Below are positions 2,420-36,865 of a stretch of 64,000 bases of DNA, in pieces. Both the position numbers and the translations under genes were made by a program. How positions within the stretch are numbered: position 1 is the first letter of the stretch; every line of letters starts with the position of its first letter. The stretch spans positions 310,001 through 374,000 of the forward strand of contig NZ_CALPBY010000006.1 in NCBI RefSeq assembly GCF_943181405.1, given 5' to 3'. This stretch comes from Cellulosimicrobium sp. Marseille-Q4280 (lineage in GTDB: Bacteria; Actinomycetota; Actinomycetes; Actinomycetales; Cellulomonadaceae). Under the pieces are notes generated by a model. It had not been told where the DNA came from. It worked only from the letters and a program-made list of their open reading frames with translations, and did no database searches.

Positions 2420-2784
2420 GAAGGCCTCCGGTGCTCGGTGGGGTGTGTCGTCGACGCTACGTGTCATAGCGGTCAGATCCTGTCCTCTATCTCCGCTCGT
2501 CCGCGGAGTTTCCCGCAGGATCGGACTGCCCGGAGACCGATGACTCCGGGGGCGAAAAGAAGTCGTCACGTCCGGTGGGAATAACGCAGGATGAGGATCG
2601 GTCGTACAGGGTACGGATCTTCGCGGCGGACGCCGCGGGGCCCCGCCCGCCCCGCTCCCCGGCCCCCCCGACACCGCCGTCGCGTGCCTCGCACGCGACC
2701 TCCGGGCTGCCCCGTGCAGCCCGAACCCGCCCCCGCCGGCCTGGACCGAGACCGGCGCACCGAACGACGCGAGCGGAGAACTCC

Positions 2785-4344
2785 GTGCCAGCCTCCCCCT
2801 CCCCCGACACCACGGCCCGACCCCTGCCCGGCGACGCCGTCACCGACGCTCCCGTCACCGACGCTCCGGTCACCGGCGCGCCGTCGGGCACCGCGACGCA
2901 CGTCGGCGTCGACAAGCTGCCGCGCGAGGACTTCCTCGTCATCGCGCTCCTGCTCGTCTCCGCGTTCGTCGTGATCCTCAACGAGACGACGATGAGCGTG
3001 GCGCTCGCGCCCCTGATGACCGACCTCGGCATCACGGCGAGCACCGGTCAGTGGCTCACGACGGCGTTCATGCTCACGATGGCCGTGGTCATCCCCGCGA
3101 GCGGCTTCCTGCTGCAGCGGCTCGGCACGCGCGGGGCGTTCCTGCTCGCGATGTCGCTCTTCAGCGCCGGCACCCTGCTCGCCGCGCTCTCGCCCGGGTT
3201 CTCCTGGCTGCTCGTCGGGCGTGTGGTCCAGGCGTCGGGCACGGCCATCATGATGCCGCTGCTCATGACGACGATCATGACGCTCGTCCCGCCGGCGATC
3301 CGCGGCAAGGTCATGGGCAACATCTCGATCGTCATGGCCGCTGCGCCGGCCCTCGGCCCGTCGCTCTCGGGCCTCATCCTCGACACGCTGAGCTGGCGCT
3401 GGGTGTTCGGCATCGTCCTGCCGATCGGGCTCGTCGCCCTGGTTCTCGGCTTCCTGTACGTCCGGGACGTGGCGGACCGTACACACTCGCGTCTCGACCC
3501 GTTCTCGCTCCTGCTCGCCGCGCTCGCGTTCGGCGGTCTGGTCTACGGCCTGTCGAGCATCGGCGAGGCCGCGCGGCACACCCCGGTGGTGGCGCCGTGG
3601 ATCCCGATCGTCCTCGGAGCCCTCGCCCTCGGCGCGTTCGCGTGGCGTCAGGTGCGCCTCCAGCGCGAGGACCGGGCGCTGCTCGACCTGCGCGTGTTCG
3701 CCTCGCGCGGGTTCAGCGTCCCGCTCGGGATCATGGCCGTCGGCATGGTCGCGATGTTCGGCTCGCTCATCCTGCTGCCGCTGTTCCTCCAGGACGCGAT
3801 GGGTCTCGAGCCGCTGCAGACAGGCCTCATCGTCCTGCCGGGCGGGCTGCTCATGGGTCTGCTCGGCCCGACCGTCGGCCGCCTGTTCGACCGCGTCGGA
3901 CCCCGTCCGCTCGTGATCCCCGGCGTGAGCGTCGTGGCCGTCGCCCTCGCGGCGTTCACGACCATCCACGCCGACTCGTCGCCGTTCTTCGTCCTCGCGC
4001 TGCACGTCGCGCTGAGCCTCGGCCTCGCGTTCATGTTCACGCCGCTCTTCACGACGGCCCTGTCGTCGCTCCAGCCGAACCGCTACTCGCACGGCTCTGC
4101 GGCCATCGGCACGGTCCAGCAGCTCGCCGGTGCCGCCGGCACGGCGATGTTCGTCGCGGTCATGACCACGCGGTCGATCGCCTACGAGGCCGACGGCGCG
4201 TCGCCGCAGGTCGCGCTCGCCGAGGGCGTCGGCGACGCGTTCGTCTGGGGCACCGCGGTCATGCTCGTCGCCGTCGGTCTGTCGTTCCTCCTGCGCCGCG
4301 CCCCCGCCGGTCCCGGCGGAGCCCCGGTCCCGTCCGGCCACTGA
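2785..4344 (+). CDS. DHA2-family MFS multidrug exporter
   Basis: A 519-residue drug:H+ antiporter of the 14-helix DHA2 (EmrB/QacA) type. After a Thr/Pro/Asp-rich tail of about 45 residues containing TDAPVTDAPVTGAP, helix 1 carries VVILNETTMSVALAPL, typical of this family, and TDLGITASTGQWLTTAFML follows. A motif-C-like GP segment (APALGPSLSGLIL) lies near helix 5. It should export hydrophobic drugs across the plasma membrane. GTG 2785 is chosen because GGAG lies six bases upstream; an earlier in-frame start at 2575 would add sequence unlike the family. No regulator gene is adjacent; the neighbour is the divergent epoxide hydrolase. Confidence 0.88.
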   Translation: MPASPSPDTTARPLPGDAVTDAPVTDAPVTGAPSGTATHVGVDKLPREDFLVIALLLVSAFVVILNETTMSVALAPLMTDLGITASTGQWLTTAFMLTMAVVIPASGFLLQRLGTRGAFLLAMSLFSAGTLLAALSPGFSWLLVGRVVQASGTAIMMPLLMTTIMTLVPPAIRGKVMGNISIVMAAAPALGPSLSGLILDTLSWRWVFGIVLPIGLVALVLGFLYVRDVADRTHSRLDPFSLLLAALAFGGLVYGLSSIGEAARHTPVVAPWIPIVLGALALGAFAWRQVRLQREDRALLDLRVFASRGFSVPLGIMAVGMVAMFGSLILLPLFLQDAMGLEPLQTGLIVLPGGLLMGLLGPTVGRLFDRVGPRPLVIPGVSVVAVALAAFTTIHADSSPFFVLALHVALSLGLAFMFTPLFTTALSSLQPNRYSHGSAAIGTVQQLAGAAGTAMFVAVMTTRSIAYEADGASPQVALAEGVGDAFVWGTAVMLVAVGLSFLLRRAPAGPGGAPVPSGH

Positions 4345-4485
4345 CGAGCCACCGTCCCGAGGCGACGTGTTGCAGGGACCACGTGCCGTCGTCGTCAGGC
4401 GCCGGACGGGCGCCGGACGAGAGCGGTAGGGCGCTCTGGAGGACGCCGGACGAGACGGGAGTCCGCTCACGAGGGCGCCGGTCGA

Positions 4486-4587
4486 GGCCGGAGGGGCGGC
4501 CGTGCCGGGTCGTGGCGGGTCTGGCGGGAGCGGTGCGAGGAACGAGCACCGCGGATGGTAGACCCGGCACGGCCGCCCCGGAGCGCC
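4486..4587. repeat. dispersed palindromic repeat, copy A
   Basis: A 102-base element between two convergent genes, filling most of a 316-base gap. It has perfect 19-base terminal inverted repeats (4493-4511 and 4561-4579). Inside is a second hairpin with stem arms 4530-4536 and 4546-4552 and loop GAGGAACGA. The reverse complement of 36663-36762, between gyrB and gyrA, is nearly identical. The few differences between copies sit mainly in both arms of the inner stem and largely keep the pairing. It looks like a REP/MITE-type or structured-RNA repeat; I recognise no named family. Nothing else was seen in this gap. Confidence 0.85.
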
Positions 4588-4660
4588 TCGTCCGGCGCCC
4601 GACCCGCCCAGCGCCCGACCCGCCCAGCGCCCGACCCGCACGGCGCCCACCCGGCGCCGG

Positions 4661-6145
4661 TCAGCCGGCCGTCGACTCCGGCTGCTCGGCCCACCACCGC
4701 AGGAGGTCCTCGCGCGCGACGTCATCGTCGACCGGTCCACGGTCGAGCCGCAGCTCCAGCAGGTGCTTGTACGCCCGACCGACGACCGGGCCCGGACGGA
4801 TGCCGAGGATCGCCATGATCTGGGCGCCGTCCAGGTCCGGCCGGACGGCGTCGAGCTCCTCCTTCGCGCGGAGGTCGGCGATACGGTGCTCGAGGTCGTC
4901 GTACGACTCCCGCAGCCGCTGTGCCTTGCGGCGGTTCCGCGTCGTGCAGTCGGCACGGGTCAGGCGGTGCAGCCGCTCGAGCAGCGGCCCGGCGTCGGTG
5001 ACGTACCGGCGCACCGCGGAGTCCGTCCAGGCGCCGTCGCCGTACCCGTGGAAGCGCAGGTGCAGCTCGACGAGCCGCGCGACGTCCTTCACGACCTGCT
5101 TGTCGTAGCGCAGGGCCTTGAGCCGCTTCGCGACCATCTTCGCCCCCACGACCTCGTGGTGGTGGAAGCTCACGCCGCCGCCCTCCTCGAACCGCCGCGT
5201 CGGCGGCTTGCCGACGTCGTGCAGGAGCGCGGCGAGGCGCAGCACGAGGTCGGGCGCGGGGACGGCGCCGTCGGGCCCGGTCTCCTGCGCGATCGCCTGG
5301 TCGAGCACCGTGAGCGAGTGCTCGTACACGTCCTTGTGCCGGTGGTGCTCGTCGATCTCGAGCTTGAGCGCGGGCAGCTCGGGCAGCACGTGGTCCGCGA
5401 GGCCCGTGTCCACGAGCACCTCGAGCCCGCGCCGCGGCTCGGCCGCGCTCAGCAGCTTCGACAGCTCGTCGCGCACGCGCTCGGCGGAGACGATCTCCAC
5501 ACGCTCGGTCATGAGGACGAGCGCGGCGAGCGTCCCGCCGTCGACCTCGAACCCGAGCTGCGCCGCGAACCGCGCGGCACGCATCATGCGCAGCGGGTCG
5601 TCGTCGAACGAGCGCTCGGGCGCGATCGGGGTCCGCAGCACGCGACGCGCGAGGTCGCCGAGGCCGTCGTACGGGTCGACGAACGTCATCTCCGGCACGC
5701 GGACGGCCATCGCGTTGACCGTGAAGTCGCGGCGCGACAGGTCGCCCTCCAGCGTGTCCCCGAACGCGACGACGGGCTTGCGCGACGTCGCGTCGTACTC
5801 GTCGGACCGGTACGTCGTCACCTCGACGACGATCTCGGGCGAGAACCGCTTCGCGCCGATGGTGCCGAACTCCTTGCCGATGTCCCAGTGGGCGTCGCCC
5901 CACCGCGCGAGGATGGCCTGCGTCTCGTCCGGGGACGCGGACGTCGCGAAGTCGAGGTCGTTGCTCGCCCGGCCGAGGAACGCGTCCCGGACCGGGCCGC
6001 CGACGAGCGCGAGCTCGTGGCCTGCCGCGCGGAACGCCTCGCCCAGCTCGATCGCGGCCGGCGCGAGCTCTGCGAGCACGGCGAGGGCGCGGCGCTGCAG
6101 CTCGAGCGCCGCAGGGGTCGGCGGGGAGGACGGTGGCGTGGGCAC
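4661..6145 (-). CDS. cca: CCA tRNA nucleotidyltransferase (poly(A) polymerase/HD family)
   Basis: A 494-residue class II nucleotidyltransferase that adds or repairs the CCA end of tRNAs. The active-site motif LVGGPVRDAFLGR is followed by the metal-binding pair NDLDFAT, and the neck has GDLSRRDFTVNAMAV, all diagnostic. Further on are DPLRMMRAARFAAQ and an HD domain (LLHDVGKPPTRR), which occurs in actinobacterial members. The start is uncertain: GTG 6145 gives the usual length, while an ATG at 6205 would overlap the ATG of the divergent NUDIX gene. In actinobacteria this gene classically opens the block leading to MurJ, trxB and the origin, as here. Confidence 0.9.
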   Translation of the reverse strand: MPTPPSSPPTPAALELQRRALAVLAELAPAAIELGEAFRAAGHELALVGGPVRDAFLGRASNDLDFATSASPDETQAILARWGDAHWDIGKEFGTIGAKRFSPEIVVEVTTYRSDEYDATSRKPVVAFGDTLEGDLSRRDFTVNAMAVRVPEMTFVDPYDGLGDLARRVLRTPIAPERSFDDDPLRMMRAARFAAQLGFEVDGGTLAALVLMTERVEIVSAERVRDELSKLLSAAEPRRGLEVLVDTGLADHVLPELPALKLEIDEHHRHKDVYEHSLTVLDQAIAQETGPDGAVPAPDLVLRLAALLHDVGKPPTRRFEEGGGVSFHHHEVVGAKMVAKRLKALRYDKQVVKDVARLVELHLRFHGYGDGAWTDSAVRRYVTDAGPLLERLHRLTRADCTTRNRRKAQRLRESYDDLEHRIADLRAKEELDAVRPDLDGAQIMAILGIRPGPVVGRAYKHLLELRLDRGPVDDDVAREDLLRWWAEQPESTAG

Positions 6146-6191
6146 GACACCCAAGCCTGCCAGATGGGACGGTCGGCGGAGCGCCACTCGG

Positions 6192-6197
6192 TAGTGT
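6192..6197 (+). promoter_or_regulatory. -10 element of a probable leaderless promoter
   Basis: TAGTGT fits the actinobacterial TANNNT -10 hexamer and ends six bases before the ATG at 6204. That spacing puts the transcription start at or next to the A of the start codon, so the NUDIX mRNA would be leaderless. No Shine-Dalgarno sequence is present. No clear -35 was found. Confidence 0.55.
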
Positions 6198-6203
6198 TGG
6201 TGC

Positions 6204-6947
6204 ATGTCCACCCCTGCGCGCGCCGACGACCCCCGGAGGTCTCCGGGCGCCGGTGGGCCGGACGACAGGGGCACGACGGGAGGACGCGGGCACGAGCGTC
6301 CCGTCGCCGTCCCTGCCCCGCCCGGAGGGCATCCCCTGCACATCGACCCGCGTGCCCGCGCCGCTCCGACGCCCACGCCGCTCCCCGTCGTGGAGGAGGT
6401 GTCGGCCGGCGGGCTCGTCATCCACGACACCGCCGACGGTCCGAGCGCCGCGGTCATCGCGCGCCGCAACCGGGGCGGCCGGCTCGAGTGGTGCCTGCCG
6501 AAGGGCCACCTCGAGGGCACGGAGACGCCCGAGCAGGCGGCCGTCCGCGAGATCGCGGAGGAGACGGGCATCCGGGGGGAGGTCCGCGAGCCGCTCGGCG
6601 TCATCGACTACTGGTTCACGGGCGACGACCGCCGCGTCCACAAGGTCGTGCACCACTTCCTGCTCCGTGCGACGGGCGGCTACCTCACGGTCGAGGGCGA
6701 CCCCGACGGCGAGGCGGAGGACGTCGCCTGGATCCCGGTCGGCGAGCTGCCCGATCGCCTCGCGTACCCCAACGAGCGGCGGATCGCCCTCGTCGCGCAC
6801 AGCGTCCTCGCCGGCCGGCCGGCGCGGTTCCACGGGACGATCACGAGTAGGGTGACCGGGACGATCGTCCGCTCGTCCCGCCGGCCGACCGACGAGCCGG
6901 GCGGGCCGCCACCGCCTGCCCCACGGAGCCCCGCCGACCACTCATGA
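6204..6947 (+). CDS. NUDIX hydrolase
   Basis: A 247-residue protein with a complete NUDIX box (G-x5-E-x7-REIAEETGI) at roughly residues 95-117, followed by a beta-strand-rich core. Such enzymes hydrolyse nucleoside-diphosphate-linked compounds and are cytoplasmic; the substrate is not deducible. The first 65 residues are Pro/Gly/Arg-rich and probably disordered, with the fold starting at SAGGLVIHD. The ATG at 6204 is supported by the leaderless -10 and lies back to back with a possible start of the divergent CCA gene. The stop overlaps the next start (ATGA at 6944), so it is translationally coupled to the DUF6049 gene. This arrangement before murJ is typical of actinobacteria. Confidence 0.88.
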
Positions 6948-16109: not shown

Positions 16110-17201
16110 GTGGACACGACCACAGGCACCCCCTCGCAGGCCGACGCGCGCGCGGCGCGCGCGGCAGGGGCCCATGCATCCCGTCCAGTGGGGGCGGCTG
16201 GTACGGATCAGCCCTCTGACCAGCGACTTCGTCCGGGTGGCTCCGACACTACTTCGGAGCCTGCAGGGCATGTCGTGATCCTCGCCGGTGGGCTCTCGCA
16301 CGAGCGAGACGTCTCTCTGAGGTCAGGTCGACGCGTCGCCGAGAGCCTGCGCGCCGCCGGCCTCGACGTGTCCGTGCACGACCTCGACGCGACGCTCCTG
16401 TCCTTCCTGGACAAGCACCGCCCCGACGTCGTGTGGCCCCTCCTCCACGGCGCCAGCGGCGAGGACGGGTCCGTCCGCGACATGCTCGAGCTGCTCGGGC
16501 TGGCCTACGTCGGAACCGGGCCCCGGCAGAGCCGCTCCGCCTGGAGCAAGCCGGTGGCGAAGAGCACCGTGCTCGGTGCCGGGATCACCACCCCCGAGTA
16601 CGTGACCCTCCCCCAGAGCCTGTTCCGCGAGCTCGGCGCGCAACCGGTCCTCGATGCCGTCGTGGCACGCCTGGGACTGCCCCTCGTGGTCAAGCCCACC
16701 CACGGCGGCTCTGCCCTCGGGGTCACGCTGGTCACCTCGGCCGATGCACTCCCTCGCGCGATGGTGAACTGCTTCGCGTATGGGGAGGTCGCGCTCATCG
16801 AGCGCGCCGTGCAGGGGGTAGAGCTCGCGGTGAGCGTCGTCGACCTCGGCTCGGGTCCCTCTGCCCTCCCGCCGGTCGAGATCGTGACCGACGGCCCCTA
16901 CGACTACGACGCGCGGTACAACCCCGGCCGAACCGAGTACTTCGCTCCGGCCCGTCTCGACGACTCTGTTCTCCAGGCGGTGCAGGACGTGGCTGTTCGG
17001 GCGCACTCCGCTCTCGGGCTGCGCGACCTCTCCCGTACCGACGTCATCGTGGACCCCGACGGAGTGGTGCAGTTCCTCGAGGTCAACGTGGCACCGGGAA
17101 TGACGGAGACGTCGCTGTTCCCGCAGGCAGCGCGAGCGGCCGGGGCTGATCTGCCCGCTCTGTACCGTGCTCTCGTGGACCTCCACGTCCGCTCGCGCTG
17201 A
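16110..17201 (+). CDS. D-alanine--D-alanine ligase family ATP-grasp protein
   Basis: A 363-residue ATP-grasp enzyme. After a polar, Ala-rich N-terminal stretch of about 50 residues, VILAGGLSHERDVSLRSGRRV matches the Ddl entry motif. PLVVKPTHGGSALGV is the ATP-grasp loop, and QFLEVNVAPGMTETS is the metal-binding EVN...PG-T motif. The likely role is joining two D-alanines for the peptidoglycan stem peptide in the cytoplasm. The GTG start has AAGGAG seven bases upstream. A second, canonical Ddl elsewhere in the genome cannot be excluded, so it might act on another dipeptide. The neighbouring aminotransferase may be co-transcribed. Confidence 0.87.
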   Translation: MDTTTGTPSQADARAARAAGAHASRPVGAAGTDQPSDQRLRPGGSDTTSEPAGHVVILAGGLSHERDVSLRSGRRVAESLRAAGLDVSVHDLDATLLSFLDKHRPDVVWPLLHGASGEDGSVRDMLELLGLAYVGTGPRQSRSAWSKPVAKSTVLGAGITTPEYVTLPQSLFRELGAQPVLDAVVARLGLPLVVKPTHGGSALGVTLVTSADALPRAMVNCFAYGEVALIERAVQGVELAVSVVDLGSGPSALPPVEIVTDGPYDYDARYNPGRTEYFAPARLDDSVLQAVQDVAVRAHSALGLRDLSRTDVIVDPDGVVQFLEVNVAPGMTETSLFPQAARAAGADLPALYRALVDLHVRSR

Positions 17202-17347
17202 GCTCGCGCCTGACCGCGTCCGGCCGCGTCGGACAGTGAGCCCTGACTGGCCCGCCCTCCCACGTCCCGCGACAGCGGTCGTCGCGCGCACTTGCTCCGC
17301 GCGACCCTGTTGTCCTGCTCCCCTGCCCCTCGCGCGGGACGACCAGC

Positions 17348-32360: not shown

Positions 32361-32375
32361 CGGCCGGGGCACGGC

Positions 32376-32411
32376 GGAGGCCCGCCGCGACACACGTCGC
32401 GACGGGCCTCC
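32376..32411. terminator. bidirectional hairpin terminator between DUF721 and the surface-protein gene
   Basis: The outer stem GGAGGCCCG/CGGGCCTCC (9 bp) and the inner stem CGCGAC/GTCGCG are stacked. It is placed between two convergent genes and should serve both strands. Confidence 0.8.
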
Positions 32412-32440
32412 GGGTTCGACCGGTGTGCGTGGGCCGGTGA

Positions 32441-34546: not shown

Positions 34547-36625
34547 GTGGCAGATCACACCGACACCGCCCAGCCCGTCTCCGCGGCACCCGCCGACGGA
34601 GCACCTCCCGCAGGCGGTGGCTACGACGCGAGCAACATCACCGTCCTCGAAGGTCTCGAGGCGGTCCGCAAGCGTCCCGGGATGTACATCGGCTCGACGG
34701 GCGAACGAGGGCTCCACCACCTGGTGTACGAGGTTGTGGACAACTCTGTGGACGAAGCCCTCGCGGGGCATGCGGACACCATCGACGTGACACTTCTCGC
34801 GGACGGAGGTGTACGAGTCGTCGACAACGGTCGAGGGATCCCCGTCGCGATGCACCCGACCGAGGGCAAGCCGACCGTGGAGGTCGTCATGACCATCCTC
34901 CACGCCGGTGGAAAGTTCGGCGGGGGCGGCTACGCCGTGTCCGGCGGCCTCCACGGCGTCGGCATCTCCGTGGTCAACGCGCTGTCCCGCCACGTCGTGA
35001 CCGAGGTGCGGCGCGACGGCTACTCGTGGCGCCAGGAGTTCGGGGACGGCGGCAAGCCCCTCACCGGGCTCGAGCGGGGCGAGGCGACGACCGCCACGGG
35101 CACGACCCAGACCTTCTGGGCCGACCCGGAGATCTTCGAGACCACAGAGTTCGACTTCGAGACGCTGCGCGCCCGGTTCCAGCAGATGGCCTTCCTCAAC
35201 AAGGGTCTGCGCATCAACCTGACCGACGAGCGTCCCGCGCACCTCGACACGGGCGACGAGGTCACGGGTGCGGACCCGGAGGAGGGTGACGAGGCCTCGT
35301 CCGAGGCTCCTGCACCGAAGGCGCGGACCGTGTCGTACAAGTACGACGGCGGCCTCGTGGACTACGTGAAGCACCTCAACTCCGCGAAGAAGGTCGAGCT
35401 CGTCCACCCCGACGTCATCGACTTCGAGTCCGAGGACACGGAGCGGCGCATCTCCGTCGAGATCGCCATGCAGTGGACCGGCTCCTACTCGGAGTCCGTG
35501 CACACCTACGCGAACACCATCTCGACGACCGAGGGCGGCACGCACGAGGAGGGCTTCCGTGCGGCCATGACGTCCCTCGTCAACCGCTACGCGCGGGACA
35601 AGGGCATACTCAAGGAGAAGGACGACAACCTCACCGGTGACGACATCCGCGAGGGGCTGACCGCCGTCGTCTCCGTGAAGCTCGGCGAACCGCAGTTCGA
35701 GGGCCAGACCAAGACGAAGCTCGGCAACACCGAGGCGAAGACGTTCGTCCAGCGCGTCGTCAACGAACGGCTGGTCGACTGGTTCGACTCGCACCCCACC
35801 GAGGGCCGCGACGTCATCCGCAAGGCGATCCAGGCGTCGCAGGCCCGTCTCGCCGCCCGCAAGGCGCGCGAGGCGACGCGCCGCAAGGGCCTGCTCGAGT
35901 CCGGCGGCATGCCGGGCAAGCTGCGCGACTGCCAGTCGAACCGCGCCGAGGAGTGCGAGATCTTCATCGTCGAGGGCGACTCCGCGGGTGGCTCCGCCGT
36001 GCGCGGGCGCAACCCCGACAAGCAGGCGATCCTCCCCATCCGCGGCAAGATCCTCAACGTCGAGCGCGCGCGCCTCGACCGGGCCCTGTCCAACCAGGAG
36101 GTCCAGTCGATCATCACGGCGTTCGGCACCGGGATCGGCGAGGACTTCGACCTCGCCAAGCTCCGGTACCACAAGATCGTGCTCATGGCCGACGCCGACG
36201 TCGACGGCCAGCACATCGCGACGCTCCTGCTCACGCTGCTGTTCCGCTACATGCGGCCCCTCATCGAGAACGGCCACGTGTACCTCGCGCAGCCGCCGCT
36301 GTACCGGCTCAAGTGGTCCAACGCGCCGCACGACTACGTGTACTCCGACCGGGAGCGCGACGCGTTCCTCGCGCAGGGCCAGGCCGCCGGCAAGCGGATC
36401 CCCAAGGAGAACGGGATCCAGCGCTACAAGGGTCTCGGCGAGATGGACTACTCCGAGCTGTGGGACACGACCATGGACCCGGAGCACCGCACGCTCAACC
36501 AGGTGACGCTGGACGACGCCGCTGCCGCGGACGAGATCTTCTCCGTCCTCATGGGCGAGGACGTCGAGTCGCGACGGAACTTCATCCAGCGCAACGCCAA
36601 GGACGTGCGTTTCCTTGACATCTGA
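34547..36625 (+). CDS. gyrB: DNA gyrase subunit B
   Basis: A 692-residue ATPase subunit of gyrase. The GHKL ATP site shows [24 protein letters not shown] and [15 protein letters not shown]. The TOPRIM metal site is EGDSAGGSA with [10 protein letters not shown] and [11 protein letters not shown]. The C-terminus [16 protein letters not shown] and the final [10 protein letters not shown] are standard. GTG 34547 is chosen; GAGGAG lies eleven bases upstream, slightly far. The N-terminal 30 residues are a variable Ala/Pro tail. gyrA follows after a 240-base gap holding repeat copy B. Confidence 0.97.
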
Positions 36626-36662
36626 GCCGCTGGTCGAGGGTGCGAGTGTGTGCCGGGCCGGG

Positions 36663-36762
36663 GCTCTCCGGGGCGGCCGTGCCGGGTCTACCATCCGCGT
36701 CCTCGTTCCTCGGCCGCTCCCGCCAGACCCGCCACGACCCGGCACGGCCGCCCCTCCGGCCC
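36663..36762. repeat. dispersed palindromic repeat, copy B
   Basis: A 100-base element in the gyrB-gyrA gap, inverted relative to copy A (4486-4587) and nearly identical to it. The terminal inverted repeats 36671-36689 and 36737-36755 are perfect 19-base arms identical to those of copy A. The internal GAGGAACGA loop is conserved on the minus strand. Read on the plus strand, the hairpin could attenuate or process the gyrB-gyrA message. Confidence 0.85.
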
Positions 36763-36865
36763 CGGTCCGGCACGGTCGCGCAGGCGGCGCACCCTGCACG
36801 GGGCCGTCCATGACGCGGCGCACGGCGACAGCAGCACGACGAGAAGACGACGAACGAGGTAGATC

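Follow-up and report, generated by a model that had tools for sequence, protein, structure and literature searches.

A family of covarying hairpins with a conserved core, dispersed mostly at gene 3′ ends in Cellulosimicrobium and related actinobacteria

Two inverted copies of a long hairpin lie in the Cellulosimicrobium window

The window analyzed here is a 64,000-nucleotide stretch of Cellulosimicrobium sp. Marseille-Q4280 (contig NZ_CALPBY010000006.1, positions 310,001 to 374,000). It contains two copies of a hairpin element in opposite orientations. Copy 1, identified by sequence, fold, and covariance-model match (with its outer stem, 4483 to 4590, + strand), lies between the convergent genes for a DHA2-type MFS efflux transporter (2575 to 4344, +) and CCA tRNA nucleotidyltransferase (4661 to 6604, −). 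Copy 2 (36658 to 36765, − strand) lies between gyrB (stop codon at 36625) and gyrA (start at about 36866). These neighbors agree with an earlier, sequence-only reading of this DNA, which placed one copy between convergent genes and the other between gyrB and gyrA.

In copy 1 (all features on the + strand), the outer stem P0 pairs CGAGGCC (4483 to 4489) with GCGCCTCG (4583 to 4590), with one base bulged. The sequence places a 3-by-3 internal loop, GGA (4490 to 4492) opposite GGA (4580 to 4582), at the base of the main stem P1, whose 19-nt 5′ arm (4493 to 4511) and 3′ arm (4561 to 4579) are perfect complements. A conserved 10-nt bulge, GTGGCGGGTC (4512 to 4521), leads into a conserved apical core (4522 to 4560), which consists of a short helix TGGCG/TGGTA, an inner GGA/GGA loop (4527 to 4529/4553 to 4555), stem P2 (4530 to 4536/4546 to 4552), and the apical loop GAGGAACGA (4537 to 4545); the sequence itself, and in part RNAalifold, gave the pairing of the short helix and of GGA/GGA. 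Copy 2 has the same parts on the − strand: P0 (36765 to 36759/36664 to 36658), the P1 5′ arm (36736 to 36754) and 3′ arm (36670 to 36688), and the core (36689 to 36735), where P2 is GCGGCC/GGACGC with one mismatch.

The sequence-only reading had described two nearly identical inverted copies with perfect 19-base arms, and both were recovered as described: the arms GGGGCGGCCGTGCCGGGTC are exact at 4493 to 4511/4561 to 4579 and at 36670 to 36688/36736 to 36754. Allowing up to three mismatches, the arm pattern occurs six times in the window (the four exact occurrences being these arms), versus 0.46 expected from shuffled sequence. In inverted orientation the copies are 98% identical over 51 nt and 93% identical over 44 nt, and their folds have z-scores of −5.3 and −5.9. 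The inner stem differs on both arms with pairing mostly kept, again as claimed, since GCGGTGC/GCACCGC is fully paired and GCGGCC/GGACGC loses one pair (G against A). A third model match in the window (32367 to 32419; 21.5 bits) was rejected as an ordinary hairpin between convergent predicted genes. The fourth, at 17122 to 17205, is weak (12.7 bits).

The element is abundant in the genus and patchy beyond it

A DNA search of the own genome gave 42 matches, two of which are arms matching themselves. A covariance model built from 27 of these copies gave at least 47 at E ≤ 0.01, a lower bound, since scoring covered 150 of 14,224 first-look candidates. The weakest of these look degenerate (e.g., C1:739070 and C6:141750). 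The description as a two-copy repeat understated the family, the window copies being 2 of at least 47 genome matches. Extending the model search to related genomes, as had been suggested, detected the element in all 17 genomes of the genus searched, with at least 12 to 70 matches each. In the family it was found in at least 49 of 221 genomes and 11 of 25 genera. Across the order it is patchy (at least 21 of 396 genomes, in six families, the sixth of which, f19, rests on one doubtful match), and in the phylum it was found in at least 2 of 396 genomes, both inside the order. All genome counts are lower bounds, with 150 (own genome), 71 (genus), 18 (family), or 10 (order and phylum) first-look candidates scored per genome; the weakest matches may be false, three (G096, G103, and G285; 40.7 to 44.4 bits) having no convincing core. 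Among the matches listed, named records include ones from Cellulosimicrobium, Luteimicrobium, Isoptericola, and Actinomyces. A search of phages and plasmids with one copy as the query gave no match.

Several observations were made in passing. QAPD01 records that carry the element (loci L139, L148, L172, L177, and L205) are labeled Sphaerisporangium cinnabarinum ATCC 31213, a label that is probably wrong. The own-genome assembly has four contigs that end no more than about 150 bases from an element (C5:71, C6:129, C8:39, and C1:1077420), and strong GC-rich hairpins may lie behind these breaks in the assembly. At some loci (L024/L029, L121, L105, and L084), elements occur in pairs about 250 to 510 bp apart, with their core strands pointing apart.

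Stems covary around an almost invariant core

Read along the core strand, family members have a variable P0, a GGA/GGA 3-by-3 loop (in a subset), P1 (19 bp, variable), the bulge GTGGYGGGTC, and then the core: the short helix TGGCG/TGGTA, the second GGA/GGA, P2 (5 to 7 pairs), and the loop GAGGRACGA. The core, bulge included, is nearly invariant; P1, at about 19 bp, varies in sequence while staying paired. In an alignment of 27 rows, 91.4% of cells pair and 23 of 26 pairs carry changes on both sides, versus 10 to 15 pairs in controls in which the partners were slid. The covariation score was 0.493, compared with 0.053 to 0.130 for slid partners and a mean of 0.128 for shuffled partners. Unaided, RNAalifold recovered P2 in part, the short helix for the most part, and the whole outer stem; its loop differs. 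In the infB copies of five genomes (G025, G192, G197, G200, and G203), a plain hairpin tip replaces the GGA/P2/GAGGRACGA portion, so that the bulge and the adjoining helix are the invariant part and the tip is exchangeable.

Among 154 distinct P1 stems, 100 passed a filter that required Watson-Crick pairing at 14 or more of the 19 positions in register (54 were left out), and 54 of these 100 are perfect over 19 bp. Three or four Watson-Crick types occur at 15 of the 19 positions of the filtered stems, whose arms form 35 clusters when grouped at an identity of 15 of 19. For the statistics on the GGA loop and P2 we used 92 distinct P1 taken from 146 of 196 copies. At the three loop positions below P1, 26 of the 92 are unpaired, with the 5′ GGA present in 19 and the 3′ GGA in 17; in most stems without the loop, pairing continues into P0.

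The stems thus change by paired substitutions around an almost invariant core. Selection for structure had been proposed for the window copies, with the prediction of many intergenic copies with covarying stems; the 47 own-genome matches and the both-sided changes in 23 of 26 pairs agree with it. Two copies only, with no covariation, had been named as grounds for refutation; we found far more copies, and their stems covary. It is also conceivable that template switching at palindromes, a mutational correction, keeps the stems perfect with no selection on folding, as the 54 perfect stems among the 100 retained would suggest. This is most improbable in our judgment, given that some stems (26 of 92) have kept the GGA/GGA loop at the P1 base unpaired, without correction, that the core is nearly invariant across families, and that the filtered stems are asymmetric between strands.

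This asymmetry lies in the mismatches. On the core strand, the filtered P1 stems (n = 100) contain 29 G·T and 7 A·C cells, beside 32 other mismatches (p = 0.0003 by cell; p-values for P1, as for context and spacing, are too small because orthologous copies are included). Counted by P1 cluster, the ratio is 16:6 (p = 0.05), and P2 adds 5 G·T and no A·C. The P1 ratio is 6:1 at convergent sites, 12:1 for copies whose neighbors both run against the core strand, 4:0 for those whose neighbors both run along it, 2:1 in unclear contexts, and 5:1 outside Cellulosimicrobium; among copies inside predicted genes the excess nearly vanishes (5:4). Over all 196 unfiltered copies the bias is absent (76 G·T and 67 A·C), presumably through random cells contributed by rows out of register. 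The filtered excess suggests that it is the core strand that folds, as single-stranded DNA or RNA, rather than the strand of the usual neighbor's mRNA; the excess depends on the filter and is weak after clustering.

Copies lie mostly downstream of genes, in a preferred orientation

Classification of 199 distinct copies placed 60 between convergent genes, 95 between tandem genes, 4 between divergent genes, and 39 inside predicted genes (as called by a home-made gene finder whose frames are probably often over-long), with 1 unclear copy that has no right neighbor. Hence 160 of 199 copies are outside predicted genes, and divergent placement is rare (4 of 159 classified copies). In 110 of 155 copies the nearest gene end lies to the right of the core strand, which is antisense to it, and in 45 of 155 it lies to the left; the median distance to the stop codon is 54 nt on the right (110 copies) and 111 nt on the left (45 copies). 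The 155 convergent or tandem sites include 59 at which both neighbors run against the core strand, and 36 tandem copies are reversed. No U-tract follows the hairpin: T makes up 11% (right, 110 copies) and 5% (left, 45 copies) of the first 12 nt past it.

At the five sites where both neighbors were identified, they form usually cotranscribed pairs (gyrB-gyrA, nrdE-nrdF, nrdD-nrdG twice, and infB-rbfA), and the two nrdD-nrdG copies are in opposite orientations. Since such genes are usually cotranscribed, full termination at the gyrB-gyrA, nrdE-nrdF, and nrdD-nrdG copies would be harmful. The core strand runs against the replication fork in 49 of 74 copies from G005, G009, and G012, counted by hand from the matches listed with origins also placed by hand, a modest preference that may only mirror gene direction. 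In two genomes of the Actinomyces family (L179 and L342), the element lies between pyrophosphatase and NlpC-like genes with a similar P1 in opposite orientation, and it looks as if it had been inverted jointly with an adjoining plain hairpin.

The same sites differ among species

At gyrB-gyrA in the 17 genus genomes, inspection by eye showed the element in 4 (with a core insert in G015), truncated remnants in 4, and none in 9. At the transporter/CCA site the element is present in 5 of 17 genomes, and the remaining 12 show a different palindrome by eye; G005 also seems to retain a one-arm remnant there, and in G014 the palindrome stands along with the element. Downstream of infB, at its 3′ end, the element occurs in 11 of 28 genomes with an infB match, from five genera and two families; the 30 genomes surveyed were picked for carrying the element somewhere, so that this is not a population frequency. 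In all 11 copies the core strand is opposite to infB. We inspected 24 of the 28 sites, the 11 with the element and 13 without; all 13 of the latter show, by eye, a plain terminator-like hairpin, and at least three sites (G000, G013, and G295) have the element plus a plain hairpin before it, also by eye. The infB copies of G204 and G197, which belong to different genera, have nearly identical P1 stems, in which one change is compensated, but different tips. In G207 (L372) and G204 (L374), the plain hairpin after the infB stop codon shares one arm with P1 by eye, and the two could be alternative structures of the transcript.

These sites bear on whether the element is mainly an inherited cis-acting RNA of the upstream gene (a terminator, attenuator, or 3′-end stabilizer, such as a Rho site), with mobility secondary. 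The mRNA would then contain the pyrimidine-rich complement, GGTCTACCATCC...GCTCCCGCCAGACCCRCCACGACC. The spacing after stop codons, the preferred orientation, the uniform orientation at infB (11 of 11) in two families, the near-identical P1 in G204 and G197, and the plain hairpins at 13 of 13 inspected infB sites and 12 of 12 transporter/CCA sites without the element would all fit, and the three infB sites with both structures favor it slightly. Inherited function accounts for the constant infB orientation in both families no less well than insertion does. We nevertheless regard this explanation as somewhat unlikely, as the filtered G·T excess (29:7) falls on the opposite strand, 36 tandem copies are reversed, the element decays at gyrB-gyrA, one version has multiplied recently (see below), and the U-tract is absent.

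One version has multiplied recently

A 224-bp version, comprising the hairpin and its flanks, is present in at least 11 to 19 copies in each of seven genomes (G004, G005, G006, G007, G009, G012, and G016). A hand count among the matches listed showed these copies to be mostly 87 to 94% alike over the unit, and the hairpin part is identical to the letter in 16 copies from G005, G009, and G012 that had been chosen by equal scores. An alignment of 32 copies revealed no crisp ends, clear terminal repeats, or target duplication; the ends run into 21-bp repeats. At one site, G002 and G011 lack a block of about 400 to 460 bp, and no clean target duplication was seen. Many copies of the 224-bp version (L089 to L104) are flanked downstream by tandem 21-bp repeats like GACCAGGGTTCTACCTCGGCC and upstream by such repeats inverted, such that the whole neighborhood resembles one large inverted repeat. 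Similar repeats seem to be present near some own-genome copies (L014 and L018). The idea that P1 is copied from the target at insertion was rejected by eye, the same P1 being found at several sites. Taken together, the multiplication, patchy presence, and remnants indicate that the element is, or formerly was, mobile.

We searched for mobilizing enzymes of the Y1/RAYT and reverse transcriptase families. Y1_Tnp/RAYT (PF01797) was detected in 0 of 17 genus genomes and in 2 of all 59 genomes searched. Reverse transcriptase matches were found in just 3 of 17 genus genomes (G000, G007, and G015); G004, G005, G006, G009, G012, and G016, where the 224-bp version abounds, gave no match. The earlier suggestion of selection for structure, as RNA or as a mobile palindrome (REP/MITE), is upheld by the dispersed, covarying copies. 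Assignment to the RAYT-type REPs is not supported, as none of the 17 genus genomes gave a RAYT match, nor is assignment to the classical MITEs, as the arms differ between subfamilies and no target duplication was seen. A classical transposase-driven element, whether a RAYT-type REP or a MITE, would account for the many extragenic palindromic copies, the presence/absence differences, and the recent multiplication. The same three facts (RAYT in 0 of 17 genus genomes, differing outer arms, no target duplication seen) make it very improbable. A core-strand product acting as a small noncoding RNA in trans, or an RNA copied back by reverse transcriptase, appears improbable: the purine-rich, almost invariant, internally paired core, the filtered strand asymmetry, and the covariation suit such an RNA, but 59 of the 155 sites classed as convergent or tandem have both neighbors running against the core strand, nothing resembling a promoter stood out when flanks were inspected by eye, and reverse transcriptase was matched in 3 of 17 genus genomes and in none of six of the seven rich in the 224-bp version.

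DISCUSSION

The element has many copies, mostly 3′ of genes, and one version has multiplied recently. At the same sites in different species it is present, absent, or reduced to remnants, and at the infB 3′ end it occurs in two families. To explain these observations, we tentatively favor, at just under an even chance, a dispersed REP-like mobile hairpin of the order that includes Cellulosimicrobium and Actinomyces, with a candidate partner factor, that is kept at gene 3′ ends and can serve there as a 3′-end hairpin. The core strand, as single-stranded DNA or RNA, would fold; a putative trans-acting factor would recognize the bulge GTGGYGGGTC and the short helix at a fixed distance of about 19 bp along P1, and would copy or insert the element near gene 3′ ends. 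There the long hairpin may take over the job of a terminator-like 3′-end hairpin, termination itself being a conjecture. Insertions at gene 3′ ends would be tolerated or kept, and those between divergent genes would be lost. Several results count against this proposal: searches for RAYT and reverse transcriptase yielded no mobilizing enzyme; neither clean target duplications nor shared terminal repeats were seen; the infB orientation is constant across families; the hairpin is followed by no U-tract; the strand asymmetry depends on filtering and is weak by cluster; some copies sit between usually cotranscribed genes; and the element does not strictly replace the plain hairpin, both being present in G014 (transporter/CCA) and, by eye, in G000, G013, and G295 (infB). 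Position, orientation, and the recurrence at infB imply that the element is either useful at gene 3′ ends or inserted there with strict directionality. Mobility and usefulness are compatible if the hairpin spreads itself and is kept where it can be used as a 3′-end hairpin.

A more detailed version of this mobile-hairpin proposal is unlikely but worth stating. It describes a new kind of modular element with a stem of measured length (about 19 bp), a 10-nt bulge rich in purines, and a tip that can be swapped, in which a putative factor would read the fold as single-stranded DNA or RNA, spread it, and mark gene 3′ ends with it, with position and orientation at infB conserved while the stems drift. 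If the mobile-hairpin proposal is true, high-GC actinobacteria carry, in a preferred orientation at gene ends (some of them of housekeeping genes), a hairpin family that has no known mobilizing enzyme; it would offer a system for studying how a selfish palindrome becomes a gene 3′ end and a route to a new hairpin-reading protein. The many naturally covarying stems, all built on one fixed core, would also help in working out the three-dimensional structure of that core and its stems.

Comparison with known systems

Like intrinsic terminators, the element is a strong hairpin soon after a stop codon, and relatives that lack it have plain hairpins in its place; unlike them, it has no U-tract, has a conserved internal core, and forms one family of many copies. 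A conserved core with covarying helices is likewise characteristic of Rfam structured RNAs, and Rfam searches left the element unmatched, both at gathering level (window) and at E up to 10 (six loci with copies). A literature search covering titles and abstract openings, mostly from open journals, returned no description of this hairpin family, and we could find no RNA or repeat family in Rfam or the literature searched that the element matches. ERIC sequences and MITEs are about 100 to 250 bp long, palindromic, and intergenic, often in transcribed regions. By description only, the element shares these features, but it has no terminal repeats common to its subfamilies, and no target duplication was seen.

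Palindromic repeats tagged with CGTC and lacking a dedicated transposase have been described (PMC3733652), and as far as that account describes them, they resemble our element as a palindromic family with no associated transposase; the element differs in having no CGTC end tag and in its size and core. That paper's main text nowhere uses the words Actinobacteria, Cellulomonas, Actinomyces, and Micrococcus.

The closest comparison is with REPs and REPINs, which, in the sections consulted of PMC3116915 and PMC8266576, are described as 20- to 60-nt sequences mobilized by RAYT/TnpA-REP, with conserved ends and a variable spacer hairpin. The element shares with them many extragenic palindromic copies and compensatory changes in the hairpin. 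One folded strand is recognized in REPs and REPINs, according to the same sections; for our element, strand folding is suggested by the mismatch counts of the filtered stems, a bias missing from the unfiltered ones. Unlike a REPIN as described there, the element is a palindrome of at least 96 nt, against 20 to 60, and has a conserved inside with variable stems rather than conserved ends. Unlike a REP, its GTAG is internal, beside the P1 3′ arm, and is not a 5′ tag, and RAYT is absent from the 17 genus genomes; no GTAG or CGTC tag stands at the end of a 20- to 50-nt palindrome. The element acts like a REP yet departs from REPs and MITEs in enzyme, tag, and terminal repeats.
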